Origin: Cloacibacterium normanense
GTDB taxonomy: Bacteria > Bacteroidota > Bacteroidia > Flavobacteriales > Weeksellaceae
Assembly (NCBI RefSeq): GCF_003860565.1
Contig: NZ_CP034157.1
Coordinates: 1,364,001-1,428,000, forward strand
Reading direction: 5' to 3'
Length of the DNA stretch: 64,000 nucleotides
The notes below the pieces were generated by a model. It saw only the letters and a program-made list of their open reading frames with translations, was not told the DNA's origin and did no database searches. Position numbers and translations under genes: made by a program. Positions 11,525 through 50,919 of the stretch are shown here, piece by piece (the first letter of the stretch is position 1; every line of letters starts with the position of its first letter).

Positions 11525-14500
11525 CTAAAATTCAACACCTTGTTTTTCCAACACTTTTTTGTAATCTCTAGGGAAAACTTTCACAAAATATTTTAAATTT
11601 TCTTCAAAATCTTGCAACAAATATTTTCCTAAATCACTATCAGTTTCCTTCACGTGTTCTTCCACTAGATTTTTGATGGTGTTTTTATCTTTTTCCGTCA
11701 AACCTTCTAAATCTGCCATATCAGGATTGAAATTTTGTTTCAACGTTTCGTTCACATCCCAAATGTAAGCGATTCCACCACTCATTCCAGCTCCGAAATT
11801 TTTACCAACTCCACCCAAAACTACCACAGTTCCACCAGTCATATATTCGCAACCGTGAGCTCCAACTCCTTCTACAACAGCAGTTGCACCAGAATTTCTT
11901 ACGCAGAAACGTTCTCCTGCCATTCCGTTGATGAAAACTTTTCCACTGGTTGCGCCATATAAAGCTACGTTACCAATAATGCTATTTTCATTGGCTTTGA
12001 AAGTAGAACTTCTATCAGGATGAACCACCAATTTACCACCAGAAAGTCCTTTTCCGAAATAATCGTTTCCGTCGCCTTCTAATTTCATCGTAATTCCTTT
12101 ATTGCAGAACGCCCCGAAACTTTGTCCGGCAGTTCCTTTGAAATTAAATCTCAAAGCATCTTCTGGCATTCCTTCAGATTTATAAATTTTGGTTAATTCG
12201 TGAGAAAGAATCGTCCCAACCGTTCTATCGGTATTGATGATATTGAATTCTGCTTCACATTTTCCGTTACTTTCGATGGCATTTTGAGCCGCTTCAATCA
12301 ACTTCCAAGACAATGAATCTACCAACTCGTCTTCTTGAGGTTCAGATTTCGTAAGAGGCAATTCTGTGTCCATTTTTTGTAAAAATGCACTTAAATCAAC
12401 GGTTTTAGCTTTCCAGAATTTTAAATCTTCTCTTTTGGTTAAACATTGGTATTGCCCTACCATTTCATCAACCGTTCTAAACCCTAAAGAAGCCATAATT
12501 TCTCTGGTTTCCGTTGCCAAAAACGTAAAATAATTCACCAAATGATCGGCATTTCCTGTGAATTTTTTTCTTAATTCACCGTTTTGTGTTGCGATACCAA
12601 CTGGACAGGTGTTTTCGTGGCATTTTCTCATCAAAATACAACCTTGAACAATGAGTGCAGAAGTGGCAATTCCCCATTCTTCAGCGCCCATTAAAGTTGC
12701 CATTACAATGTCTCTACCCGTTTTTATTTGTCCGTCAGTTTGTACGGTAACTCTTTGTCTTAATTTATGTTTAATTAAAGTTTGATGCGTTTCTACCAAA
12801 CCTAATTCCCAAGGTAAACCAGCGTGACGCACCGAACTTAACGGAGAAGCACCAGTTCCTCCATCATAACCAGAAATCAAAATATGGTCTGCTTTAGCTT
12901 TTGCAACACCAGCTGCAATGGTTCCCACTCCTGCTTTTGATACCAATTTTACAGAAATTCTAGCGTGTCTATTCGCATTTTTAAGATCGAAAATCAACTG
13001 TGCTAAATCTTCGATGGAATAAATATCGTGATGTGGCGGCGGAGAAATTAAACCAACTCCCGGTGTTGAGTGACGGGTTTTCCCAATCCAAGCATCAACT
13101 TTGTCGCCAGGCAACTGTCCGCCTTCTCCTGGTTTTGCACCTTGCGCCATTTTAATTTGAATTTCATCAGCTTCCGCTAAATATCTTGCTGTAACTCCAA
13201 ATCTTCCTGAAGCAACTTGTTTAATCGCCGAACGAAGATTTTCTCCTTTTTCGTTGAGTTGATAACGGATTTCGTCTTCGCCACCTTCTCCAGTGTTACT
13301 TTTTGCACCAATTCTATTCATTGCAATCGCTAAAGTAGAATGCGCTTCGTAAGAAATGGAACCGAAAGACATTGCACCGCTCGCAAAACGTTTCAAAATA
13401 TTTTCTACAGGTTCTACTTCTTCAATTGGGATAGCAGGTCTATCGTTTTTAAATTCTAATAAACTTCTAAGAGTTGCTGCATTATTGGTTAAATTATTGG
13501 CAGCTCTTGAATATTTTTTGAAGGTTTCGTAATCGTTATTTCTTGTGGCTTTTTGTAATAAGTCAACGGTTTGAGGATTGTACATATGGTACTCTCCTTT
13601 TCTTTTCCATTGATAAACACCGCCTTCATTTAAGACAGGTTGTTCAAATTTAGGAGCATAAGCATCAAAATGTTTTACCAAAGCTTCTTCTGCTAAATCA
13701 TCGAAACCAAGTCCTTCAATTCTAGAAATTGCGCCAGTAAAACAAGTATTTACCACTAATTTATTTAAACCAATAATTTCAAAAATCTGCGCTCCTTGAT
13801 AAGACATCAACGTTGAAATTCCCATTTTTGAGAAAATTTTCAGCAAGCCATCGCCAACAGATTTAATATAATTTTTCTTTGCTTTTGGATAATCTTCGCC
13901 TTTAATTTCGCCAGAATTCACCATTTCTCTGATGGTAGCCAAAGCCAAATAAGGATTAATTGCAGTTGCACCAAAACCGAGCAAAGTTGCAAAATGATGA
14001 ACTTCCCATGCATCGCCCACTTCTACCACCAAGCCAACTTTTCTACGAACTCCCATTCTTATTAAATGATGATGAACCGCAGAACAAGCCAATAAACTTG
14101 GGATTGCAGCGTGATTAGAATCTATGGCTCTATCTGAAAGAATGATCACATCAAAACCATCTTGCACTGCATCCATCGCATATCTACAGAGTCTGTCGAT
14201 ACCTTTTTTCAAACTTCCTGGTTTTCCGTCTGCTTTAAAATAGGTTTGTAAAGTTTTCGCTTGAAAATCTCCTGTATCAATACTTCTTAATTTTTCTAAC
14301 TGAAGATTGTCTAAAATTGGATTATCTAACGTTACACTGTGTGCAAATTTTTTGTCACCCGTTAATAAATTTCCGTTTCCACCGATAATGGTGGTTAGAG
14401 ACATAACCAATCTTTCACGAATTGGGTCGATTGGCGGATTGGTAACTTGTGCAAATAATTGTTTGAAATAAGAACTTAAATGTTGTGGTTTTTCGCTTAA

Positions 14501-16018
14501 AACTGCAATTGGAGAATCAAATCCCATAGAACCGATTGGTTCTTTGCCAGACTCTGCCATTACTTTGATTACTTTTTCTATATCTTCTCTAGAATATCCG
14601 AACGCTTTTTGGAATTTAAGAACATCTTGCCCTTGAATTCTGGTAAATCTCATTCTTGGTTCAGGAAGCTCATCTAATTTAATTTGCTTTTCTTCTAACC
14701 ATTGTTGATACGGTTGAGAAGTACAAATTTCTTTTTTCAGCTCATCATCATTAATGATTCTTCCTTTATTTAAATCAACCAAAAACATTTTCCCAGGCTG
14801 CAATCTACCTCTTCTTATGACTTTTGCAGGATCTACAGGAAGCGCACCAGATTCTGAAGCCATCACAATGGTATCATCACTTGTTACGCAATATCTAGAA
14901 GGACGAAGTCCATTTCTATCAAGAGTTGCCCCAATTACTTTTCCGTCTGTGAAAGAGATAGAAGCTGGGCCGTCCCAAGGTTCCATCACACAAGCGTGAA
15001 AAGCGTAGAAATATTTTTTATAATCCTCCATATGCTTGTCTCCGTCCCAAGCTTCAGGAATGAGCATCATCATTACGTGTGGTAAACTTCTACCAGAATG
15101 CACCAACAATTCTACCATATTATCTAAATATGATGAATCTGATTGATTGGGTTTGGTTAAAGGCAAAAGCATATCCATTTCTTGTTGAGTGAAATATGGA
15201 CTTTCTAGATTTTTTTCGCCTGAACGAAGCCAGTTTAAATTTCCTTGAACGGTATTAATTTCGCCATTATGTGCTAAAAAACGGAACGGTTGTGCTAAAT
15301 TCCAATTCGGGTTGGTGTTTGTAGCAAACCTAGAGTGTATCATTCCGAAAGCGGAAGTGAGTTTAGGATCTGTTAAATCTTTGAAATAATTTCTAATTTG
15401 TACACTTCGCAACTGTCCTTTATAGATTAATTTTCTACAAGACATAGAAGCTACATAGAAACCAATTGGGTCGTTTTGGGTAATATTGGCAATTTGGTGA
15501 GAAATATAATTTCTAAAAATAAACAATTTTCTCTCAAAATCATCATCTGAAGTTACATCAAATGGTTTTTCAATGAAAATCATTTCCATTACTGGTTCTA
15601 CAGATTTCGCTGTTTCACCAATCTCGAAATTATTAACAGGCACAGAACGATAACCTAAAATCTTATAATTGAGTTTTTCCGCGGAATTATAAATAACTCT
15701 TTTGCATTCATCTCTTAGCGCATCATCTTTAGGAAAAAACAACATCCCTAGTCCATAATCACCTACATCTGGCAAATAAAAACCATTCTCTAGCGCTTTC
15801 TCATAAAGAAACTCGTGCGGAATCTGAATTTGAATTCCCGCACCATCACCAGTACTCTTCTCATAACCTGTTGCTCCTCTGTGCTCCATGTTTTCTAACA
15901 TGGTAATAGCATCAGAAACAATCTTATGGCTCTTCACTCCTTTTAAATTGGCCACAAAACCAACTCCACATGAATCAAAATCAAACTGTGGTAAATATAA
16001 TCCGTTTTTCATCCCCAT
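11525..16018 (-). CDS. gltB: Glutamate synthase (NADPH) large subunit
   Basis: 1497 residues, standard for GltB. It hydrolyses glutamine and transfers the ammonia through an internal tunnel to 2-oxoglutarate on FMN. A 16-residue propeptide precedes the nucleophile Cys17 (CGVGF), exposed by self-cleavage. After the Ntn-amidotransferase domain come the central domain, the FMN synthase domain (PGEGGQLPG, SPPPHHDIYSIEDLAQLI, GYDGGTGASP), the [3Fe-4S] cluster motif CILMRKCHENTC, and the C-terminal glycine-rich beta helix (GGTVVVLGGVGKNFGAGMSGG). gltD follows ~180 bases downstream, so the two subunits are made together. A second in-frame ATG at 16012 is an alternative start. Confidence 0.97.
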   Translation of the reverse strand: MGMKNGLYLPQFDFDSCGVGFVANLKGVKSHKIVSDAITMLENMEHRGATGYEKSTGDGAGIQIQIPHEFLYEKALENGFYLPDVGDYGLGMLFFPKDDALRDECKRVIYNSAEKLNYKILGYRSVPVNNFEIGETAKSVEPVMEMIFIEKPFDVTSDDDFERKLFIFRNYISHQIANITQNDPIGFYVASMSCRKLIYKGQLRSVQIRNYFKDLTDPKLTSAFGMIHSRFATNTNPNWNLAQPFRFLAHNGEINTVQGNLNWLRSGEKNLESPYFTQQEMDMLLPLTKPNQSDSSYLDNMVELLVHSGRSLPHVMMMLIPEAWDGDKHMEDYKKYFYAFHACVMEPWDGPASISFTDGKVIGATLDRNGLRPSRYCVTSDDTIVMASESGALPVDPAKVIRRGRLQPGKMFLVDLNKGRIINDDELKKEICTSQPYQQWLEEKQIKLDELPEPRMRFTRIQGQDVLKFQKAFGYSREDIEKVIKVMAESGKEPIGSMGFDSPIAVLSEKPQHLSSYFKQLFAQVTNPPIDPIRERLVMSLTTIIGGNGNLLTGDKKFAHSVTLDNPILDNLQLEKLRSIDTGDFQAKTLQTYFKADGKPGSLKKGIDRLCRYAMDAVQDGFDVIILSDRAIDSNHAAIPSLLACSAVHHHLIRMGVRRKVGLVVEVGDAWEVHHFATLLGFGATAINPYLALATIREMVNSGEIKGEDYPKAKKNYIKSVGDGLLKIFSKMGISTLMSYQGAQIFEIIGLNKLVVNTCFTGAISRIEGLGFDDLAEEALVKHFDAYAPKFEQPVLNEGGVYQWKRKGEYHMYNPQTVDLLQKATRNNDYETFKKYSRAANNLTNNAATLRSLLEFKNDRPAIPIEEVEPVENILKRFASGAMSFGSISYEAHSTLAIAMNRIGAKSNTGEGGEDEIRYQLNEKGENLRSAIKQVASGRFGVTARYLAEADEIQIKMAQGAKPGEGGQLPGDKVDAWIGKTRHSTPGVGLISPPPHHDIYSIEDLAQLIFDLKNANRHARISVKLVSKAGVGTIAAGVAKAKADHILISGYDGGTGASPLSSVRHAGLPWELGLVETHQTLIKHKLRQRVTVQTDGQIKTGRDIVMATLMGAEEWGIATSALIVQGCILMRKCHENTCPVGIATQNGELRKKFTGNADHLVNYFTFLATETREIMASLGFRTVDEMVGQYQCLTKREDLKFWKAKTVDLSAFLQKMDTELPLTKSEPQEDELVDSLSWKLIEAAQNAIESNGKCEAEFNIINTDRTVGTILSHELTKIYKSEGMPEDALRFNFKGTAGQSFGAFCNKGITMKLEGDGNDYFGKGLSGGKLVVHPDRSSTFKANENSIIGNVALYGATSGKVFINGMAGERFCVRNSGATAVVEGVGAHGCEYMTGGTVVVLGGVGKNFGAGMSGGIAYIWDVNETLKQNFNPDMADLEGLTEKDKNTIKNLVEEHVKETDSDLGKYLLQDFEENLKYFVKVFPRDYKKVLEKQGVEF

Positions 16019-29828: not shown

Positions 29829-31484
29829 ATGACGGCAAAAGAGCAAGGAAAAAGGCTTCTGAAGTATATAACTAAAGAAAGAAAAGATGTTCTCAATATT
29901 TACTTTTATGCCATATTAAGTGGTCTGGTTCAGTTGAGTTTACCACTGGGAATACAAGCCATCATCAGTTTTGCGATGGGTGCAACTATGGTTACTTCTA
30001 TTTATATTCTCATTGCATTTGTAGTTCTCGGAACTTGGTTGGTAGGATTTTTCAGGGTTAAAGTAATGGAAATAATTGAAAAAATTCAACAAAAAATATT
30101 CGTAGAATATGCCATCTCTTTTTCGGAAACTTTACCAAAAATAAAACTCGAAAAGACCAATCAATATTACTTACCAGAACTTATCAATCGTTTTTTTGAC
30201 ACCCAAAATTTACAAAAAGGAATTTCTAAAATTCTGCTCGAAATTCCGACTGCTATTATTCATATTTTATTTGGGATCATTCTACTCTCTTTTTATCACC
30301 CATGGTTTTTAGCTTTTGGAGCAATTGTATTGTTAGGAGTCGTTTTGATTTTTAATTATACTTCAGAAAAAGGGATAGAAACAAGTTTAATCGAAAGTGA
30401 TAAGAAATATTTTGTCGCATCTTGGTTAGAAGATATTGCCAGTTCGGTAAAATCTTTCAAAACCAATAAACACACCAACCTTCACCTTAGAGAAACGGAT
30501 GACAGACTTCTGGATTATCTAAGTTACAGAACGCATCATTTCAAAGTTCTATTATTTCAATATAAAACCATTATTTTCTTCAAAGTTTTGATTACACTGG
30601 TTATGTTAGTAATCGGAACCTATCTATTGGTCAATCAAAAGCTAAATATTGGTGCGTTTATCGCTGCTGAAATTGTAGTGCTTACCATTTTAACCGCAGT
30701 AGAAAAACTCATCAAAAGTTTAGAAAGTTATTATGATGTCATTACGGCGCTCAGCAAACTTTCTAAGGTTACAGATTTACCGCTAGAAAATGAAACAAAC
30801 GACATTATCCATATCAAAGATGATATTCAATCTATTGAATTTAAAAATGTTTCTTTTGGTTTTGGAGATGAAGACATTCTGAAAAATTTAAATTTCAAAG
30901 TTCAACCAAGTAGCATCAATGTGATTTCGGGAGAGCTTTCTTCAGGAAAATCACTGCTCATCAATCTGATGTCTGGGATTTACGCCCCTACTTCTGGACA
31001 TATTTTATACAATGATGTTTCTTCTAAAAATTTAACTCAAGACCAAATCAGAAGAGGAATCAGTATTCACACAGATGATATAGATGTTTTCAAAGGAACA
31101 ATACTGGAAAATATTCAACTGGGAAATGAAAAAATAACCGTAGAAAAAATCAATCATATTGCTCAAAAAATAGGAATTGATGATTTCGGGACTAAGTTTA
31201 CCAACGGATTTTTGACCAAAATTCAAGATGGAAACTCTCAACTTTCTTACAGCAATAAGAAAATAATCCTTCTGCTAAGAGCTCTTGCTACGGATAATAA
31301 AATCATCATTTTAGAAGATCCTTATGATGGACTTTCTAAAGAAATCAAAGAAAAAATGATAGCGTTTTTACAAGAATTAGCCAAGGAAAAAACCATTATT
31401 GTGGTTACTCAAGATGATGACTTTATCCAAAAAGCTCATCAACATTTTCACATGATTAATGGTCAATTAGAAACTAAAAAATAA
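29829..31484 (+). CDS. ABC exporter (membrane + ATPase domains) with degenerate ATPase motifs
   Basis: 551 residues: an exporter-type membrane domain (about 1-320, several hydrophobic helices such as LSGLVQLSLPLGIQAIISF) joined to a nucleotide-binding domain. Walker A is intact (GELSSGKS, 368-375). Three other motifs are not: the signature LSGGQ is LSYSN (472-476), Walker B reads IIILED with Glu496-Asp497 in place of Asp-Glu, and the H-loop His is Gln528 (VVTQD). It looks like the inner-membrane part of a type 1 secretion system (no peptidase domain), and HlyD and TolC genes follow directly. The export substrate is not encoded nearby in any form I recognise. ATP hydrolysis may be slow or absent. 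Confidence 0.85.
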   Translation: MTAKEQGKRLLKYITKERKDVLNIYFYAILSGLVQLSLPLGIQAIISFAMGATMVTSIYILIAFVVLGTWLVGFFRVKVMEIIEKIQQKIFVEYAISFSETLPKIKLEKTNQYYLPELINRFFDTQNLQKGISKILLEIPTAIIHILFGIILLSFYHPWFLAFGAIVLLGVVLIFNYTSEKGIETSLIESDKKYFVASWLEDIASSVKSFKTNKHTNLHLRETDDRLLDYLSYRTHHFKVLLFQYKTIIFFKVLITLVMLVIGTYLLVNQKLNIGAFIAAEIVVLTILTAVEKLIKSLESYYDVITALSKLSKVTDLPLENETNDIIHIKDDIQSIEFKNVSFGFGDEDILKNLNFKVQPSSINVISGELSSGKSLLINLMSGIYAPTSGHILYNDVSSKNLTQDQIRRGISIHTDDIDVFKGTILENIQLGNEKITVEKINHIAQKIGIDDFGTKFTNGFLTKIQDGNSQLSYSNKKIILLLRALATDNKIIILEDPYDGLSKEIKEKMIAFLQELAKEKTIIVVTQDDDFIQKAHQHFHMINGQLETKK

Positions 31485-31488
31485 AACG

Positions 31489-32790
31489 ATGCAACTCAAA
31501 TCACTCGAAAATATTTATCATATCAATAAGAAATCAAATGTTGCCAAATGGTTTTTATTTACTTTTTTAGCATTTGTTTTCATTATGTTTTTGCCTTGGA
31601 CTCAGAATATTAAAACTCAAGGAAATGTTAATACTTTATTTCAGGAACAAAGACCTCAAAAACTGAACTCTCCTATTCCTGGAAGAATCATCAAATGGTA
31701 CGTGAAAAACGGAGATGTCGTAAAAAAAGGCGATACCATTCTTCAAATTTCTGAAATTAAAGACGATTATCTAGACCCACTTTTGGTAGAAAGAACTCAG
31801 GAACAAGTTCAAGCCAAAAAAGGTGTGAGAGAATACTATAATGCCAAAATTTCTACCACAGAAAACCAAATTGCAGCCATTTCTACTGCTAAAGATTTGA
31901 AACTGAATCAAATTAAAATTAAAATTGCTCAGTTACAGAATAAATTAAAAGCAGAACAAGCCGAACTTACCGCCGTAAACAACGAATTAAAAATTGCTCA
32001 AGACCAGCTTAATCGTCAGAATAAAATGTATGAAGAAGGTTTGGTTTCTCTTACTCAGTTGCAACAACGAAATGTAAGTTATCAGAATGCTCTTGCCAAG
32101 AAAACGTCTGCGGAGAATAAATTGGCACAAACCCAACAAGAAATCACGGCTCAAAACATAGAACAAAACGCTGTTATTCAAGAATATACAGAAAAATTAA
32201 GCAAAACTGAAGGCGATCGTTTCCAAAGTATGGGACAAGTTGCAGGAAGCACTGGTGACATCGCAAAATTAGAAAATCAAGTGGCAACCTATAAAGTGAG
32301 AAAAGGTTTGTATTACATTTTGGCAACGCAAGACGGACAAATTACACAACTCACGAAAGCCGGAATTGGCGAAATTGTAAAAGATGCAGAAACCATCGGA
32401 ATTATTGTTCCGAAAACGATAGATTACATAGCAGAAATTTATGTAAAACCTGTTGACTTACCGCTGATTAGAGAAAATCAAAAAGTAATGCTCACTTTCG
32501 ACGGATTTCCTGCGATTGTTTTCTCAGGTTGGCCTAATTCTAGCTACGGAACTTTTTCTGGAAAAATTATTGCCATAGAAAATTCCATCAGTGAAAACGG
32601 TTTGTTTAAAGCGATTGTTGCCGAAGATAAAACTCAAAAAAGATGGCCTCCCAACATGAAAATCGGAACAGGAGCCAGTGGAATTGCCATTCTGAATGAT
32701 GTGCCGATTTGGTACGAAATATGGAGAAATATCAATGGTTTTCCGCCAGATTATTATCAAGTAAACACCCAAAAGAATGAGAAAAAATAA
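31489..32790 (+). CDS. HlyD family periplasmic adaptor
   Basis: 433 residues. One N-terminal membrane segment (about 20-40, WFLFTFLAFVFIMFLPW), a lipoyl-like half-motif (LNSPIPGRIIKWYVKNGDVV), a long alpha-helical hairpin (about 100-250, LNQIKIKIAQLQNKLKAEQ and following coiled-coil) and a C-terminal beta domain (DLPLIRENQKVMLTFDGFPA). It links an inner-membrane exporter to a TolC-type channel. Starts 4 bases after the ABC gene and overlaps the TolC gene by 14 bases, so the three proteins are made together. Confidence 0.9.
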   Translation: MQLKSLENIYHINKKSNVAKWFLFTFLAFVFIMFLPWTQNIKTQGNVNTLFQEQRPQKLNSPIPGRIIKWYVKNGDVVKKGDTILQISEIKDDYLDPLLVERTQEQVQAKKGVREYYNAKISTTENQIAAISTAKDLKLNQIKIKIAQLQNKLKAEQAELTAVNNELKIAQDQLNRQNKMYEEGLVSLTQLQQRNVSYQNALAKKTSAENKLAQTQQEITAQNIEQNAVIQEYTEKLSKTEGDRFQSMGQVAGSTGDIAKLENQVATYKVRKGLYYILATQDGQITQLTKAGIGEIVKDAETIGIIVPKTIDYIAEIYVKPVDLPLIRENQKVMLTFDGFPAIVFSGWPNSSYGTFSGKIIAIENSISENGLFKAIVAEDKTQKRWPPNMKIGTGASGIAILNDVPIWYEIWRNINGFPPDYYQVNTQKNEKK

Positions 32791-34174
32791 AATTTTATTG
32801 CTTATTTTTCTTTTCACGTCTTATCATTTTTTCGCTCAAGATTCTATTGCTTTGAGCTATGAAAATTATATTTCTTGGGTTCAAAAAAACCATCCAATTA
32901 TTAAAATTTCTGATTGGGAAAAAAATATTGCTCAAAATAATATTTTGAAAGCCAAAGCTTTACTTGACCCAAATATTTCTGCAAAAATTGGCGAGAAAAA
33001 AATAGACAACACGCTTTATTACAGTCAAAAAAACATAGAACTGAATCTCCCAACTTGGTACGGGATAGATTTCAACATTGGCACCAATGATTTGACTGGA
33101 AATAAACTAAATAATGAAGAAACAAAAGGCGTTCTGAATCATGTAGGAATAAGCATTCCGCTTGCGAGAGATTTGGTTTACAATAAAAGAAGAACTGCCA
33201 TTCAGCAATCGAAAAATTTCAGCAAAATGACCTTTTACGAGCAAGAAATGCTCAAAAATGAAATCCTTTTGGAAGCAAATTTCAGTTTTTGGGAATGGGT
33301 GAAAAATTACGAAATTTTAGAATTGAACAAAAAGGTTCTTGACCTCAACAAAAAAAGATATCAATTGGTCAAAAAATCATTTGAGTTGGGAGAAAGACCA
33401 GCCATAGATACCGTAGAAGCTTTCACGCAACTGCAAAGTTTCGAAGCCAAAACCATAGAATATCAGAACAAGTTTAATATTTCTACCATAGAACTTTCAC
33501 AATTTCTTTGGAAAGAAAACGGTGAAAATTACAATCTTCCGTTATTTACCAAACCAAGTGAACAACTGAACACTCAGTTTACCCAAGATTACTTTATCAT
33601 CACCGAGAAACTTTTACAAAATATTGATACACAATATGCGCTGAATTATTATTTTGAAAAATCTAAATCTTTGGAACTGGAAAGGAAACTAAAATGGCAA
33701 AATTTTCTTCCTAAAATCAATTTCAATTACAATTTGTACAATAAAGAGTTTAAAAATCAGGACATTCTGCCACTTTTTGACAACAATTATCAATATGGTA
33801 TAAAATTGGAGTTACCCATATTCATGAGAGAAGCTCGTGCTGATTATCAAAACATTAAGCTGAAAATTCTCCAGAATAATGAGAATATAAAATTTAAAAA
33901 TCAAGAATTAAAAACCAAAATACAGACTTACAATGCAGAAATGAGCAATTTCTTATCTTTAACTCAAAATAATGAATCGCTCATTGAGAATTATAAAAGG
34001 CTTTTAAAAGCCGAAGAAATTAAATTTTCTAATGGTGAAAGTTCACTTTTCTTAATTAACAGCAGAGAAAACAAACTATTAGAAACTCAAGAAAAATTTC
34101 TAGAACTGAAAGCCAAAACGATTAAAACTTATTTTAAACTGAACTGGCTGGAAAACAACACTTTAAAACAATGA
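32777..34174 (+). CDS. TolC family outer membrane channel
   Basis: 465 residues. A signal peptide (LLIFLFTSYHFFAQ) precedes a protein made almost entirely of long helices with the repeat pattern of outer membrane efflux proteins. The WKENG and KINFNYNLYNKEF segments mark the beta-barrel strands. It would form the trimeric exit duct for the exporter encoded upstream. It overlaps the HlyD gene by 14 bases and the DUF493 gene by 4, so the run is one transcription unit. Confidence 0.88.
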   Translation: MRKNKILLLIFLFTSYHFFAQDSIALSYENYISWVQKNHPIIKISDWEKNIAQNNILKAKALLDPNISAKIGEKKIDNTLYYSQKNIELNLPTWYGIDFNIGTNDLTGNKLNNEETKGVLNHVGISIPLARDLVYNKRRTAIQQSKNFSKMTFYEQEMLKNEILLEANFSFWEWVKNYEILELNKKVLDLNKKRYQLVKKSFELGERPAIDTVEAFTQLQSFEAKTIEYQNKFNISTIELSQFLWKENGENYNLPLFTKPSEQLNTQFTQDYFIITEKLLQNIDTQYALNYYFEKSKSLELERKLKWQNFLPKINFNYNLYNKEFKNQDILPLFDNNYQYGIKLELPIFMREARADYQNIKLKILQNNENIKFKNQELKTKIQTYNAEMSNFLSLTQNNESLIENYKRLLKAEEIKFSNGESSLFLINSRENKLLETQEKFLELKAKTIKTYFKLNWLENNTLKQ

Positions 34175-34479
34175 TAGAAGTAACAGGAAACGAACCATTT
34201 GATGAACAAGCAGAATTTTATGCTTCTTTAAAAATAAATTTAGAGAAAAATCACAATTTCCCTGAAGATTATCTTTATAAATTCATCATTGTCAATAATC
34301 AAGAAAAGCTTACAGAAATTTATAAGGTTTTTGACGGCACCAAAAATACTTTTTCTACCAGAGAAAGCAGTAACGGAAAATACATCAGTATTACCATACA
34401 ATGTTTCGTACTGGATGCGGAACATGTGATCAGACTTTATCAGGAAGTTGCCAAAATTGAAGGCGTAATTATGTTGTAA
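34171..34479 (+). CDS. DUF493 family protein (YbeD-like)
   Basis: 102 residues of the DUF493 type: a small ferredoxin-like fold similar to ACT domains, with FPEDYLYKFIIVNNQEKL and the SSNGKYISITIQCFV strand followed by AEHVIRLYQEVAKIEGVIML. The molecular role of DUF493 is not known. Its start overlaps the tolC stop (ATGA), so it is co-expressed with the exporter genes although no functional tie is established. Confidence 0.88.
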   Translation: MIEVTGNEPFDEQAEFYASLKINLEKNHNFPEDYLYKFIIVNNQEKLTEIYKVFDGTKNTFSTRESSNGKYISITIQCFVLDAEHVIRLYQEVAKIEGVIML

Positions 34480-44952: not shown

Positions 44953-47900
44953 TTATTCATTAATGGAAACCTTCGTTCCCTGTGTATGCGCATTCATTTG
45001 TGGCGCGTAATAATTCTGCATCGTAGTAATTCCGTTGCTGAACGTTCCCGCTGCATTACAAATATAATCATACTCAAAAACGTATTTTCCTTTCGGCATG
45101 TATTCGATGTAGAAATTGGTAGATGCATCCTTAGTTACCTGGTAATAACCCAAATTATTCTTCCATTGATAGCCAGAAAGTACGTCAACCGGCTCAAAAC
45201 CTGCGGCTCTCATATCTTTCAAATGAATAAATTCCATATTTCTATCGGTGTTCAGAATCATTCTGACCGTTACTTTATCCCCTATTTTTAGTGGCGAATT
45301 TTCTGTAATTTTCTGCAATTCTTCACCGTTTACCGTTTTCACTTTTTTGTACAATTCTTTGGTGATGGAAATATAACTTTCAGAAGATTTAATTTTGTCT
45401 AAATACTCATAATATTGCCAGAATAAACCACCTTGAACAATTCCAGCTCCTGGTTTTGTAATGGTTACTGTGGCTAAATTTTTATCTAATTTATCTGAAT
45501 TTACCGCAGATTTTACATAACCAGTTGCTTTTGTATCAGGATTTACCAAATCTTTTCCTCCCCAAATTATCGTGGCTTTATCATTTTCCGCAGAAGTCCA
45601 AGATTTTCCAGAATTGAGAATCGTATAAATCACTTCGGCGGTACTTCTAGAAGTATCCCAATTCGAAACTTCTTTCTGTGTAATCAGCCAAATTTTCATT
45701 TCTTCTACAAAATTTTGGTCGGTATTCAATTTATTGAACGCTTCCAAAGCACCAGCGTGATTTACGGTTTTTGAGGAATACCAACCCCAATCGTTGAGAT
45801 TTTGTTTCCAATACACCCCTTGAGTTTCGCTTTGTACAGAAGTTTCTTTCAGATAAGTCATTAATTTTTTAGAAACATCTTTTAAATTATACGCATCAAA
45901 AATCAATGCCGCTCTATGTAATCCAAAGAAAGTAAAATCAGTAATTTTAGCTGTTTTAGCTTTTGAAATCAATAAATCTTTCATTTTCTTGCCATCACCT
46001 TTAAACGGAAATTCTTTTTCCCAATAATGACGAGCATCCAAATAATCTAAAACATAATTACTCCAAACATTGCTTCGACTACGCTCAGCAACCGCCTTTA
46101 CATCGAAATATCTGCTCACTTCATTATCCACAAATTTCACCAATTGAGAAACCATTTCTTTTTGTTCCGAAGACTGATAATCTGCTAAATTCCCTTTCAA
46201 CCATTCATTAATTCTACCTAAATTTTTCAAAATATACAGCGAATTGTAGTAGGAACTTGGGTAACCAGCGTACCACGAAAAACCGCCATCAGGATTTTGC
46301 AATTTTTTCAGTTCGCTCCAATCCTCATTGATGGAATTTCGCATGGTATTGGCATCAAATAATCTTGCCAATTTCGCCATTTGTTCGGTTTCGTTTTTAG
46401 CATCTAAAACCCAAGGCGTTTCTTCTAACAATAATTGTTTCAATTCTTGGTTTTTCTCCAAATTTGAATTGAGTAAACCTTTGGCTTGATACTCATCAAA
46501 AACAGTTTTCAGTTTTGGATTGGCTTTGAAAATTTCAGACGCCAAAACATCAGCAAACCATTTATTGAAAACCACATCGGCAGAAAGATTATTATCATTC
46601 TTGAGACTTGGCAACGCAAAAATCACTTCCCAAATTGGGTTCGTAGTTAATTCTAAAGTGTTTGAAACATTCGTTGCTGTTTTAGAAGAATTATTTTTCA
46701 GATTTTCTAAAACAAAGGTCTTGGTTTGACCTTCTTTCACAAAAACCGGAACTGCATCTGTTACCAACATTCGGTTTGGCAAAACTGCGATTGCTTTTTG
46801 TTCACCATCAGAAAATTGACCAGCTTTCGCAACATTTTTAATGATAATAGAAGAAACTCCATTCGGAACTTTTACATTCCATTGAACGGTTGTGCTTCCA
46901 TTTGCATTGAGTGTAAATGATTGTTCTACGTTGTAACCAGCAGCTGCATTTAACTGGTTAATTCCAAATTTTTCAGTAATATCTTCATTGGTAAAAGCGT
47001 CTAATATTTGCAAATTCGCAAAACCTTTGAGTTGTTGAGTCGTTAAGTTGCTCAATTTAGCTTTGAAAACCAATTCATCACCTTCTCTCAAAAATCTAGG
47101 ATAATTAGGTGTTACCGAAAATTCTTTTTGGGTAACCACCGTTTTTTCTAAAGTGGCAACTTGCGCATCTTTGGTATGAGCTAGAAACATCAATTTCCAT
47201 TGTGTAAGAGCTTCTGGAGATGTAAATTCAAACGATACATTTCCGTTTTTATCCGTCATTAAATTTGGATAAAAAAATGCGGTTTCATTGAGATTGGCAC
47301 GAACTTTAACATTTTCTAAGTTTTCTTTTTTCTTTGCATAGCCAAGTGAAACCACTTCTTCTATATCCTTAGTTTTTACGGAATCTGTTACAGCTTCTGA
47401 CTTCATTGAAGCCATTCCTCTAATTTTGACATTTGAGGAAGGAACTGCACTTTCAGTTATTATGAGACCAGCTGCTCTTCCTCTTAACTGATAAGTAATT
47501 CCTCCATCAAACCAATCAAAATCCGGTCTATTCACACCGAAATTATCAAAATATTTTAGTCTTTTGCTGTAATATTTTTGGTCTAAACTTTCATTGATGC
47601 CGTATTGAGAAATCCAGTAAGGTTTGCTGTAAAGACTTTGCCAAGAATAAGTATTTACCGCAAATTGGTCTAAAGATTTATCATACATATTTGCCAAAAC
47701 TTCGGCAGTAATCTGATCGGTGAACGAAGTCGAACTGCCAGAAATTTTCACACTCCATTTTTCTTTAGAATTCGGTTGTAATTTATCTCTAAACGTTACC
47801 AATTCTATTTTAAAAGGCTTTTTATCCGAAGAAATTTTCACATCTTGCGAAACAGTTTGCACATCATTGAAAGCAATCATTTGAAACTGAACATTCAGAT

Positions 47901-50900
47901 TTTCTATGCTAATATCTTTCGGAAGTGGAACTTCGTAAACTAAAATTCCGTTTTTAATCGGTAATTGCTCAAATTGCGTTTTTCCATCACCGTTTTGAAC
48001 ATATACATTGACCATAGCATCTGGAATGGCTGAATAAACGTAGAATTTAGCCTTTTCAGTTCTGTTGTATTCTGCTTTTGCAAGTAAAACTTTTAAAAAT
48101 GGTTTTTGATTTTCTGCAAGTTTGGTTTTATCAAAAACTTCAAAAATTTTCTCCGTTTTGATGGTATCTTTTCCTTCGATGTTAAAGAGTTCTAGTTTGT
48201 ATTTTCCAGCGGAAAGTTTTCCTAAATCTAAATTGGTAATTGGTAATTGGTCATTAGTATTTGGACTTTCTATTCGTTCAAATATTTTGCTTTCAACTTT
48301 CTGTTCTTTTTCAGATTTTTCAAAATAATCATGTGGGAATTTCTGTACAAAAACTTCTTTGCTAAAGAAAGGCGCATTCTGAATTTCACTCTCAAAATTG
48401 GTTCTAAAAACTCTTTCTTGAGGTGATAATTTTGACAATTTTGCGGTGTAACTTTTCTTTAAAATCTGGTCATTGTAATTTTTAGTTTCAACTTTAAATT
48501 TTATATTTTCGTCTGTAAAATAATCTGTCACACTGAGCGGAGTCGAAGTGTTGGCTTCTGAAAGTGAAATATAATGGGAAACCGAAGCCACTTTTAGATT
48601 GGTTTGGTCAGATTGTGTTTCTCCGTTAATATCGGTAACAGAAGCATTGATTTGATAATTATCAATCTGTATTCCTTCTAAAGTTTCATCTTTTTTGAGG
48701 TCAATTTTTATGGTGAATTCCCCTTTTTCATTGGTTTTTACTTCACCAAGAATTGAGTTCTCGTTATCATTTCCACGAGGATACCACCAGAAATATCTCC
48801 AACGAATATTCTGTTTTTTGATTTCATAATTTACGGTAGCATTATTGAGCGGAACTCCCGAAAACATCATCGCTTTTCCTTGTAATTCTATGGTTTGTCC
48901 GTACTGATATTCTTGTTTTACCGGTTCAAAACTTACTTCAAATTTCGGACGTTTATATTCCTCTACTCGGAAACTTTTATAGCCGTCCATCACATAATCT
49001 GTGACTTCTTCATCGTCATTATCAACTTCTATAGAAAATTGTCCGTTCAGTTTTCCTTGTGGAAGCGTAAAACTTCCGTTCACAGAACCAAATTCATTGG
49101 TAGTTAAAGTTTGCGTAGAAATTTCTTCGCCATTTGTATCTTTCAAAGTGATATTTAATTTCACTTTTGGTGTTACTTTTTCTTTATTGGTTTCACTGCT
49201 AAAAGCGGTTCCAATTACTTTAAAATAAACAGTTTGTCCAGGTCTGTAAATCGCTCTGTCTAAGAAAATTTGCGCTTGTTCTACTTCATTTCTAGTGTTA
49301 AAAGAGGTATCATACTGATTGCCATAAACTTGCAAAAGATTCACATCATTGGTAGAAGGTTGACGAACCATAACATAGCGATAATAGCGTTTTTTATCAT
49401 TTTCTGGAATTTTGAAACCAGCTTTATCATCTGTAACTCCCGCAGATTTTTCTATATTTTGTTGAGCAACATATTCATAAAATTCTAAGTTTTCTTTTGG
49501 CAAAATTTTCCCATTTTTTCTGAGCACCAATTGCAATTCATTTTCGAAAATTTGTTGGTCTGATTTATTTTTAAAAATAATTCTAGAATTAGCGGCAATA
49601 AAATAAAAATGGTCTTGAACATTGCCATCTACCAAATATTCTCCCACGTAAATTCCCGAAGGAAGTGGCGCAATTTCCAGCGAAGTTTTATGAGAAGTGT
49701 AATCTTTAAAATTTTTCAGCGGAAAAGTTTCTTTTTTTACCAAAGTTTTCTTGAGTTGAGAAAAATAATCTTTGTTCCATGAATTATAAATATACTTCAA
49801 AAAGCCTTGATAATCAGATTTCACTTCATAAATATTGAGCGAAAACTGTGACGTATTTTTGTATTCTGCAACCAAATGAATCGGTTGGTTCGGCAAAGTG
49901 GACGTTTCAAATTTTATATTAACAAAAGGCTGTTTGATTTGATTTTCTTGATTTTTGATGTTTTCTAAAAATTTAGATTTTGGATAGGCTTTTTTCACTT
50001 TTTCAATCCAAGAAAGCGCTTCATCAAATTTTTGTTCTCCTTGAAGACTGGAAATGATTTCTTGAGCAATTAAAACCTTATACTCGTCTTCTGTTGCTGA
50101 ATTATAAAGAGAAATTAATTGTTCTTGTTTGTTTTTACAGTTGGTAAAAGCACATTCATCATTCAGTTTTTGATGTTTGAAGTACAATTGCGCATTTCCT
50201 GAATTTATAGCAATTAACGCATCATAAATTCCTAAAATTTTAGGCTGATTTTCTTTCAGTTCATTTTTAGTAAAATAACTATTATCTTGAAGATAATCAA
50301 TATATTGCATTGATTTATAATCAAAAAATGTAGGGAAATAAGCAATATCTTCTACTCCATCAAAAATCTCTGCATATTTTGAAATCGTGATTTTTTGTAA
50401 CGCTGCATCTTGTTTTGAAATTTCAGAAAAATATTGGACAAAATAATTTTTAAAATCTAATTTGCTCCATGTTTCGATTTGAGAAAAATCTTGCTTTTCG
50501 CCAGTATTTACATTCGTTCTTTGGTTAATTTCCCATTGATTTTCATCGTAATAATCTTGAAAAAAGTCTCCCAACAATACTTGAAAAACCAATTTTTGTT
50601 CGCCTTTTAATTTCTGGTCAAAAGATTCTAATTTTTTAAAAAATTGAGAAGCGGTGTCATTTTGAGTATCATCTTCGGTAAGGTCTGTCACGCTTAATTC
50701 CGCTTTCAAAGATTTAATCAATTGAATCGCGTTGTCTTCTGAAATCGCACGTTTCTGAATGTCTAAAATGAGCGGAAGATTAGATTTATAAGTTCCTTTC
50801 TTATAGTTTTCAGAAATTTTCTTCCATTGTTGGTCATAGTATTTTTGAGCTTTCATAGGAGTTATATTCCAAATGAGGAATAGTAAAATGAAGATTTGGG

Positions 50901-50919
50901 TTAGTTTTTTCATAATCAA
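44953..50919 (-). CDS. Alpha-2-macroglobulin family protein without thioester
   Basis: 1988 residues. Signal peptide (first ~24, ending PMKAQ), an N-terminal region unique to flavobacterial members, MG domains (YRPGQTVYFKVIGTAF, GEFTIKIDLKKDET), bait-like region, the A2M domain with FYPNLMTDKNGNVSFEFTSPEALTQWKLMFLAHT, a helical TED-like region, and a C-terminal receptor-like domain ending GTFSNGITTMQNYYAPQMNAH. In family members with a thioester this domain has CxEQ; here it reads LPSLKNDNNLSAD, so no thioester exists. A SusC-type signature (EEVVSLGYAKKKENL, with IRGMASM before it) is placed ahead of the A2M domain. M1 (50919) and M3 (50913) are both possible starts. It may trap proteases in the periplasm. 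Confidence 0.88.
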   Translation of the reverse strand: MIMKKLTQIFILLFLIWNITPMKAQKYYDQQWKKISENYKKGTYKSNLPLILDIQKRAISEDNAIQLIKSLKAELSVTDLTEDDTQNDTASQFFKKLESFDQKLKGEQKLVFQVLLGDFFQDYYDENQWEINQRTNVNTGEKQDFSQIETWSKLDFKNYFVQYFSEISKQDAALQKITISKYAEIFDGVEDIAYFPTFFDYKSMQYIDYLQDNSYFTKNELKENQPKILGIYDALIAINSGNAQLYFKHQKLNDECAFTNCKNKQEQLISLYNSATEDEYKVLIAQEIISSLQGEQKFDEALSWIEKVKKAYPKSKFLENIKNQENQIKQPFVNIKFETSTLPNQPIHLVAEYKNTSQFSLNIYEVKSDYQGFLKYIYNSWNKDYFSQLKKTLVKKETFPLKNFKDYTSHKTSLEIAPLPSGIYVGEYLVDGNVQDHFYFIAANSRIIFKNKSDQQIFENELQLVLRKNGKILPKENLEFYEYVAQQNIEKSAGVTDDKAGFKIPENDKKRYYRYVMVRQPSTNDVNLLQVYGNQYDTSFNTRNEVEQAQIFLDRAIYRPGQTVYFKVIGTAFSSETNKEKVTPKVKLNITLKDTNGEEISTQTLTTNEFGSVNGSFTLPQGKLNGQFSIEVDNDDEEVTDYVMDGYKSFRVEEYKRPKFEVSFEPVKQEYQYGQTIELQGKAMMFSGVPLNNATVNYEIKKQNIRWRYFWWYPRGNDNENSILGEVKTNEKGEFTIKIDLKKDETLEGIQIDNYQINASVTDINGETQSDQTNLKVASVSHYISLSEANTSTPLSVTDYFTDENIKFKVETKNYNDQILKKSYTAKLSKLSPQERVFRTNFESEIQNAPFFSKEVFVQKFPHDYFEKSEKEQKVESKIFERIESPNTNDQLPITNLDLGKLSAGKYKLELFNIEGKDTIKTEKIFEVFDKTKLAENQKPFLKVLLAKAEYNRTEKAKFYVYSAIPDAMVNVYVQNGDGKTQFEQLPIKNGILVYEVPLPKDISIENLNVQFQMIAFNDVQTVSQDVKISSDKKPFKIELVTFRDKLQPNSKEKWSVKISGSSTSFTDQITAEVLANMYDKSLDQFAVNTYSWQSLYSKPYWISQYGINESLDQKYYSKRLKYFDNFGVNRPDFDWFDGGITYQLRGRAAGLIITESAVPSSNVKIRGMASMKSEAVTDSVKTKDIEEVVSLGYAKKKENLENVKVRANLNETAFFYPNLMTDKNGNVSFEFTSPEALTQWKLMFLAHTKDAQVATLEKTVVTQKEFSVTPNYPRFLREGDELVFKAKLSNLTTQQLKGFANLQILDAFTNEDITEKFGINQLNAAAGYNVEQSFTLNANGSTTVQWNVKVPNGVSSIIIKNVAKAGQFSDGEQKAIAVLPNRMLVTDAVPVFVKEGQTKTFVLENLKNNSSKTATNVSNTLELTTNPIWEVIFALPSLKNDNNLSADVVFNKWFADVLASEIFKANPKLKTVFDEYQAKGLLNSNLEKNQELKQLLLEETPWVLDAKNETEQMAKLARLFDANTMRNSINEDWSELKKLQNPDGGFSWYAGYPSSYYNSLYILKNLGRINEWLKGNLADYQSSEQKEMVSQLVKFVDNEVSRYFDVKAVAERSRSNVWSNYVLDYLDARHYWEKEFPFKGDGKKMKDLLISKAKTAKITDFTFFGLHRAALIFDAYNLKDVSKKLMTYLKETSVQSETQGVYWKQNLNDWGWYSSKTVNHAGALEAFNKLNTDQNFVEEMKIWLITQKEVSNWDTSRSTAEVIYTILNSGKSWTSAENDKATIIWGGKDLVNPDTKATGYVKSAVNSDKLDKNLATVTITKPGAGIVQGGLFWQYYEYLDKIKSSESYISITKELYKKVKTVNGEELQKITENSPLKIGDKVTVRMILNTDRNMEFIHLKDMRAAGFEPVDVLSGYQWKNNLGYYQVTKDASTNFYIEYMPKGKYVFEYDYICNAAGTFSNGITTMQNYYAPQMNAHTQGTKVSINE
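46072..46095. repeat. Repeat-like tract inside the alpha-2-macroglobulin gene, copy 1
   Basis: The 18-base core GCTTCGACTACGCTCAGC, inserted in frame; on the gene strand it encodes VAERSRS just before NVWSNYVLDYLDARHYW. Two related tracts lie in the same gene at 47720-47738 and 48527-48553. Confidence 0.55.
48527..48553. repeat. Repeat-like tract inside the alpha-2-macroglobulin gene, copy 2
   Basis: GTCACACTGAGCGGAGTC with a following GAAGTG, the same core as at 46072 but in the opposite sense; the gene reads CACTTCGACTCCGCTCAGTG, encoding TSTPLSV, and the ends can pair as a short hairpin (CACT/AGTG). A weaker third copy is at 47720-47738 (TTCGACTTCGTTCA). Confidence 0.55.

Follow-up and report, generated by a model that had tools for sequence, protein, structure and literature searches.

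Tripartite pumps have been described as energised by ABC, RND or MFS transporters (PMC8277102). Transport by the membrane domain of an ABC exporter in the absence of an ATPase has so far rested on two engineered proteins, MsbA and LmrA, together with one importer family, SbmA. When MsbA is cut down to its membrane domain, proton-coupled transport of ethidium and chloramphenicol persists (PMC4979069), and the corresponding membrane domain of LmrA is a secondary-active translocator, a glutamate in TM6 of LmrA being needed for proton-coupled transport (PMC6155054). SbmA, which has no nucleotide-binding domain (NBD) and is inferred to have arisen from an ABC transporter, is proton-driven by way of a glutamate ladder (PMC13316013).

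Here, we analyze a three-gene operon within a 64,000-nucleotide stretch of Cloacibacterium normanense DNA (hereafter the window), whose parts are known, being HlyB/HlyD/TolC-like, and whose motor state is undescribed in the open-access literature that we searched. That literature holds no description of tripartite exporters that are NBD-less or doubly degenerate, and no transport, ATPase or energy-coupling data for any member of the family; subscription papers were not covered. The original prediction, made from the letters of the window alone, had proposed that the complex is kept although its ATPase may be inactive or atypical, and that it perhaps represents a distinct exporter class. Our comparison supports this proposal: the motif changes are shared among relatives, some of which have decayed further, and the hlyD-tolC linkage holds throughout. 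We consider it probable, if well short of settled, that the operon belongs to a family of regulated tripartite exporters whose ABC motor was given up stepwise and whose membrane domain operates without hydrolysing ATP, an ion gradient being the probable driving force; transport, energy source and cargo are inferred.

Operon layout and predicted structure

The operon lies on the forward strand at positions 29829-34174 of the window, which belongs to a single contig of 2.76 Mb. Its first gene (29829..31484) encodes an ABC-derived inner-membrane protein of 551 aa, recognized from its ORF together with Pfam, AlphaFold2 and Foldseek. It is followed by genes for a HlyD-type membrane fusion protein, the periplasmic adaptor (31489..32790; 433 aa; HlyD_3 PF13437, 2.4e-13), and for a TolC-type outer-membrane factor (32777..34174; 465 aa; OEP PF02321, 2.5e-28). 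A 4-base gap separates the ABC gene from hlyD, while hlyD and tolC overlap by 14 bases, an ORF layout that bears out both the boundaries and the tight coupling first reported for the three genes. A DUF493/YbeD-like gene (34171-34479) had also been reported to overlap the end of tolC. The overlap is present and comprises the first 4 bases of that gene, but the gene is not part of the system: the overlap is genus-specific and, among the loci read, recurs only in L136. Elsewhere in the window, two very long ORFs of 1497 and 1988 aa lie on the reverse strand (11525-16018 and 44953-50919, respectively).

The ABC-derived protein consists of a type IV exporter membrane domain (approximately residues 1-325) and a degenerate NBD (approximately residues 333-551). 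Pfam matches PF00005 in it with 62.6 bits; its PF00664 score of 22.4 bits is under the cut-off of 28, above which the NBD-less relatives described below score. With 87 aligned homologues, AlphaFold2 predicted a full exporter monomer (pLDDT 88.2, pTM 0.80), and the best solved matches of this model in Foldseek were TM287/288 and PCAT1, with TM-scores of 0.82-0.90 among the top hits and of up to 0.90 for PCAT1. HlyB and PCAT proteins carry a C39 or C39-like domain at the N-terminal place. The window protein begins at the elbow helix and has no such N-terminal domain. Many canonical relatives and some degenerate ones (L085, L089, L075, L078, L088, L095, L104, L109 and others) have an N-terminal extension of 150-280 aa ahead of the membrane domain. 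Pfam searches on the extensions of some of these relatives gave no convincing match and no C39 at E up to 1.

Degenerate catalytic motifs across the clade

Homologues were collected by whole-genome searches within the same family, within the class and across the phylum; 120 stretches of flanking DNA were read and 153 proteins aligned. A tree of 150 rows was then built from the membrane-domain columns only, which kept the NBD from influencing it. The window protein falls within a clade of 130 of these rows (SH-aLRT 100, stem length 1.13), whose members are spread over Bacteroidota.

In the NBD of the window protein, Walker A is retained as GELSSGKS (residues 368-375; 30930..30953, forward strand). 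Motif alignment places LSYSN at the signature position in place of LSGGQ (residues 472-476; 31242..31256), Glu496-Asp497 in Walker B in place of Asp-Glu (31314..31319) and Gln528 at the H-loop position in place of His (31410..31412), all on the forward strand and all at the residues given in the original prediction. Whether homologues linked to HlyD and TolC share these three changes had been left to alignment: across the 121 NBD-bearing members of the clade they are conserved together, and the refutation set out with the prediction, canonical motifs in homologues, fails for this clade. Specifically, 87 of the 121 have Glu at position 496, where only 15 have Asp, and at position 497 Asp occurs in 87 and Glu in only 16. 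Only three members keep the signature Gly, 81 having Ser there, and only five keep the H-loop His; some of these few canonical residues fall in doubtfully aligned NBDs. By alignment column, the Walker A Lys is present in 112/121, and a search recovers a recognizable P-loop in 109/121. The full set of Walker A, Asp-Glu, His and signature is found in no member of the 130-row clade. Outside it, Asp-Glu and His are kept in all 15 canonical relatives, and also in the outgroup and most sister relatives; an LSTGQ signature occurs in L110 and in three of the most distant canonical relatives (L118-L120). Among the 57 full-length proteins found separately in named genomes, none has an intact Asp-Glu or H-loop His. 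One of these, L221, is misaligned in its NBD, and the apparent absence of the domain from it in the added alignment is an artefact of aligning. Judged from these alignments, the motif changes in the window protein are not chance.

Placed on the membrane-domain tree, the sequences indicate that the signature was lost first, with Walker B and the H-loop going next and Walker A only afterwards, in scattered lineages. The last step, defined by the P-loop search, has affected 12 of the 121 NBD-bearing members (L101, L135, L148, L153, L161, L163, L164, L165, L169, L171, L174 and L175) and requires at least six changes on the tree. The remainder of the NBD is recognizable in most of these proteins, and in L171 the loss is merely a change of Lys to Arg.

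Members without an NBD

The nine NBD-less rows of the tree make up a single clade (SH-aLRT 100) that lies within the degenerate forms and whose sister, L089, retains an NBD in degenerate form. The NBD-less proteins are 332-339 aa long and end (VTDLELEE...) just past the membrane domain, in the linker where the NBD would start, and PF00664 is the only ABC domain that Pfam matches in them. Named genomes contributed 23 NBD-less loci, from Mucilaginibacter, Pedobacter, Sphingobacterium, Hymenobacter, Spirosoma and Larkinella, and the tree set and named-genome set together comprise 29 distinct NBD-less proteins after removal of three duplicates. Among 201 Sphingobacteriaceae genomes, the NBD-less form was detected at an identity of at least 63% in 39. 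The truncated gene is directly followed by hlyD in each of the 23 named NBD-less loci, with a median overlap of 5 nt, and tolC comes next. Over all 80 named loci, hlyD adjoins the ABC or membrane-domain-only gene in 77, and tolC is the next gene in 76.

For an NBD-less member, AlphaFold2 predicted a complete six-helix type IV membrane domain (pLDDT 90.4), with an elbow helix, short loop helices (113-116 and 213-216) at the places of the coupling helices and no extra TM helices. In VIA-align, the best structural matches of this model were TmrB (Z 27.0) and HlyB (8dck_A, Z 26.5). SbmA was absent among the 50 structural matches listed, which is uninformative and no evidence of difference. The existence of members without an NBD suggests that an exporter of this family can work without its own ATPase, and we argue from it, in the absence of biochemistry, that within the NBD-less sub-clade at least the exporter does not depend on an NBD of its own for hydrolysis.

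Several irregularities were also recorded in this survey. G1055 has two NBD-less copies (C3:406320-407309 and 428912-429892), and G195 has two copies of the exporter membrane protein (C3 and C11). Single in-frame stop codons lie inside the matched stretch in L059 (G203), G502 C12 and G1053 C3, consistent with occasional pseudogenes or with overrun of the match past the gene end. The tolC frame is split in two in L136 (8448-9823), L131 and L181, a genus mate of the window organism being among them; a frameshift or sequencing error is possible.

Conservation and selection

Pairwise identity across the clade averages 49.4% in the membrane domain against 30.5% in the NBD, and not one of 7199 pairs has the higher identity in the NBD. 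The corresponding averages for canonical relatives are 47.6% and 41.9%, and there the NBD is ahead in 35% of pairs. Because the membrane domain is conserved while the NBD drifts, we infer that selection has moved to the membrane domain. Within the window genus, estimates of dN/dS, rough because they rest on few changes, lie at 0.02-0.04 in the membrane domain and at 0.03-0.10 in the NBD. The NBD of this genus, being under purifying selection, is not dead weight, and since that of the window protein also still folds in the predicted model, it probably has a structural or regulatory role.

Within the NBD-less clade, the second coupling-loop region shows 33% identity as against 62% over the whole membrane domain, while the first coupling-loop region stands at 62%. 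Glu84, Glu189, Glu281 and Glu292 hardly vary, whether or not the NBD is present, and the same largely holds for ATPase-competent relatives. As those relatives largely keep them, the membrane acids are candidates for ion coupling and not evidence of it. By column conservation, Glu281 and Glu292, which fall in a segment of TM6 (30669..30704, forward strand) and are still acidic in NBD-less members, are the candidates that we infer within this helix. No proton-coupling residue was gained alongside NBD loss, the NBD-less clade having gained only basic charges, at positions 242 and 270.

Regulator, neighbors and searches for a partner

A TetR-type regulator (Pfam TetR_N) lies directly upstream in 53 loci, none of them canonical. 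The gene is present in 39 of the 57 named full-length loci and is divergent in four NBD-less loci; the window genome contains no close copy, only generic hits. Clustering of neighbors, for loci with enough flank, found nothing widely recurrent except TetR, HlyD and TolC. No cargo gene recurs nearby, just as none had been seen in the window at the outset, and no second ABC gene recurs, and thus no competent partner half is encoded alongside. A search of nine NBD-less genomes with the sister NBD recovered no orphan NBD, the best hits (27-31% identity) lying inside ordinary full-length transporters. A strongly diverged NBD partner cannot be excluded by this search, because the window NBD itself scores no better against the sister-NBD query. 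The closest paralogues in the window genome are generic exporters with 21-27% identity, and every genome examined encodes several generic type IV half-exporters. PADLOC gave only a weak match of the NBD region to mad3 and hence no link to defence.

Proposed mechanism and alternative explanations

Comparison of sequences and predicted models shows motif loss, NBD loss, conserved linkage, purifying selection and, as predicted, a retained exporter fold; that the exporter works is inferred from the linkage, the regulator of many relatives and the selection, without transport data. On this basis, the ancestor would have been a type I secretion or peptidase-ABC-like (HlyB/PCAT-like) system, whose motor may have decayed first in the C-loop, then in Walker B and the H-loop, then in Walker A in several lineages, with the whole NBD lost in one clade. 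A dimer of membrane domains would most likely shift the substrate into the HlyD-TolC duct without ATP hydrolysis. Its energy would probably come from an ion gradient, with proton coupling via conserved membrane acids such as Glu84, Glu189, Glu281 and Glu292; both this coupling and the role of ATP hydrolysis in driving, or not driving, export are inferences. Where the NBD is kept, as in the window protein, it would act as a structural or ATP-sensing domain and not as a motor. The cargo may be a small toxic or signalling molecule, an inference for which the TetR gene is the only hint. In its broadest form, the proposal is that tripartite exporters across the phylum naturally abandoned ATP, the membrane domain with HlyD and TolC forming a secondary exporter driven by an ion gradient, and that living species display the passage from competent ATPase through degenerate NBD to none. 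This broader form we hold tentatively, as credible without quite outweighing its denial.

The retention of Walker A in 109/121 members, together with the acidic Walker B pair, tells against a retired motor, since ATP binding or slow hydrolysis remains possible in most members, including that of the window; for the window protein itself, the main uncertainty lies in such residual activity of full-length members. The full-length NBD could still power transport if the swapped Glu-Asp and altered C-loop allow slow or binding-driven cycling, in which case only the NBD-less side clade would have switched mechanism. The Glu-Asp pair is conserved in most members, the NBD is under purifying selection, and the translocation step of TmrAB can be driven by ATP binding alone (PMC7756269). 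We nevertheless regard this as unlikely, though not to be discounted: the changes to signature, Walker B order and H-loop occur together, the operon is kept in the 12 members without Walker A, every pair of degenerate proteins has its membrane domain better conserved than its NBD, and a homodimer would have both sites degenerate. A motor might instead be supplied in trans, by pairing of the degenerate subunit with a competent half-transporter or another ATPase encoded elsewhere, comparable to TM287/288 and TAP. Exporters are commonly found as heterodimers of which one half is degenerate (PMC7756269), and generic half-exporters are available in each genome examined, but the absence of a recurring second ABC gene, the distance of the window-genome paralogues and the lack of an orphan NBD in the nine genomes make such a partner improbable. 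The NBD-less proteins, moreover, lack an NBD surface for a partner NBD, and their second coupling-loop region is relaxed.

A further possibility is that the ABC-derived protein is no longer a transporter and serves as an anchor or gate through which HlyD-TolC is used by a different pump or for a periplasmic substrate. Such a role would account for the indifference to the NBD and would fit the HlyD-TolC linkage as the most constant feature of the family, yet the NBD-less forms retain a full six-helix exporter fold, as predicted, along with conserved charged residues, and an anchor would not need 62% identity over its whole membrane domain; we consider this reading unlikely. That the operon is merely a decaying relic, as the split TolC frames of three loci and the occasional in-frame stops might suggest, is very hard to reconcile with a dN/dS of 0.02-0.10 in the window genus, a three-gene order conserved across the phylum and an NBD-less form kept in several genera and families. 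The stepwise retirement of the motor remains our preferred reading. If it is true, exporters of this kind would stand as a further class of tripartite pump beside those energised by ABC, RND and MFS transporters, and many genes of Bacteroidota that are scored as ABC transporters probably encode proteins not driven by ATP. In dozens of species, the motor has been deleted and the other parts of the machine kept, leaving exporters that probably run on another energy source.

Comparison with known systems

The family shares with HlyB-HlyD-TolC and PCAT systems the same three components, their gene order and the type IV fold of the membrane domain. It differs from them in that the NBD motifs are lost or the NBD is absent, no cargo gene recurs and many members have a TetR gene; the C39 peptidase domain of PCAT is also missing from the window protein. 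MacAB-TolC does not fit, as the MacB fold (NBD first, four TM helices and a large periplasmic domain) is matched neither in domain order nor by the six-helix exporter fold found here. Altered Walker B, C-loop and H-loop motifs also occur in TM287/288, TmrAB and TAP, but these keep one competent site in the partner half, whereas no partner gene recurs beside the operon in the window family.

SbmA/BacA (SLiPT) proteins likewise have an exporter-fold membrane domain without an NBD, a likeness confined to the NBD-less sub-clade since the window protein has one. Their parent lineage is YddA and not HlyB/PCAT-like. SbmA is an importer without coupling helices, has additional TM0 helices and does not partner with HlyD or TolC. 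In the window family, by contrast, the elbow and coupling-loop helices remain in the NBD-less model and intermediates with a dead NBD survive. Differing in parent lineage, coupling helices, TM0 helices and partners, the window family does not belong to the SLiPT proteins. MsbA-MD and LmrA-MD are likewise membrane domains of ABC exporters without an NBD, and ion-coupled drug transport has been demonstrated for them. Those two proteins were engineered, whereas the same truncation arose here in evolution and has been retained alongside dedicated partners, and these loci thus offer natural, stably inherited and partner-equipped NBD-less exporters together with graded intermediates.
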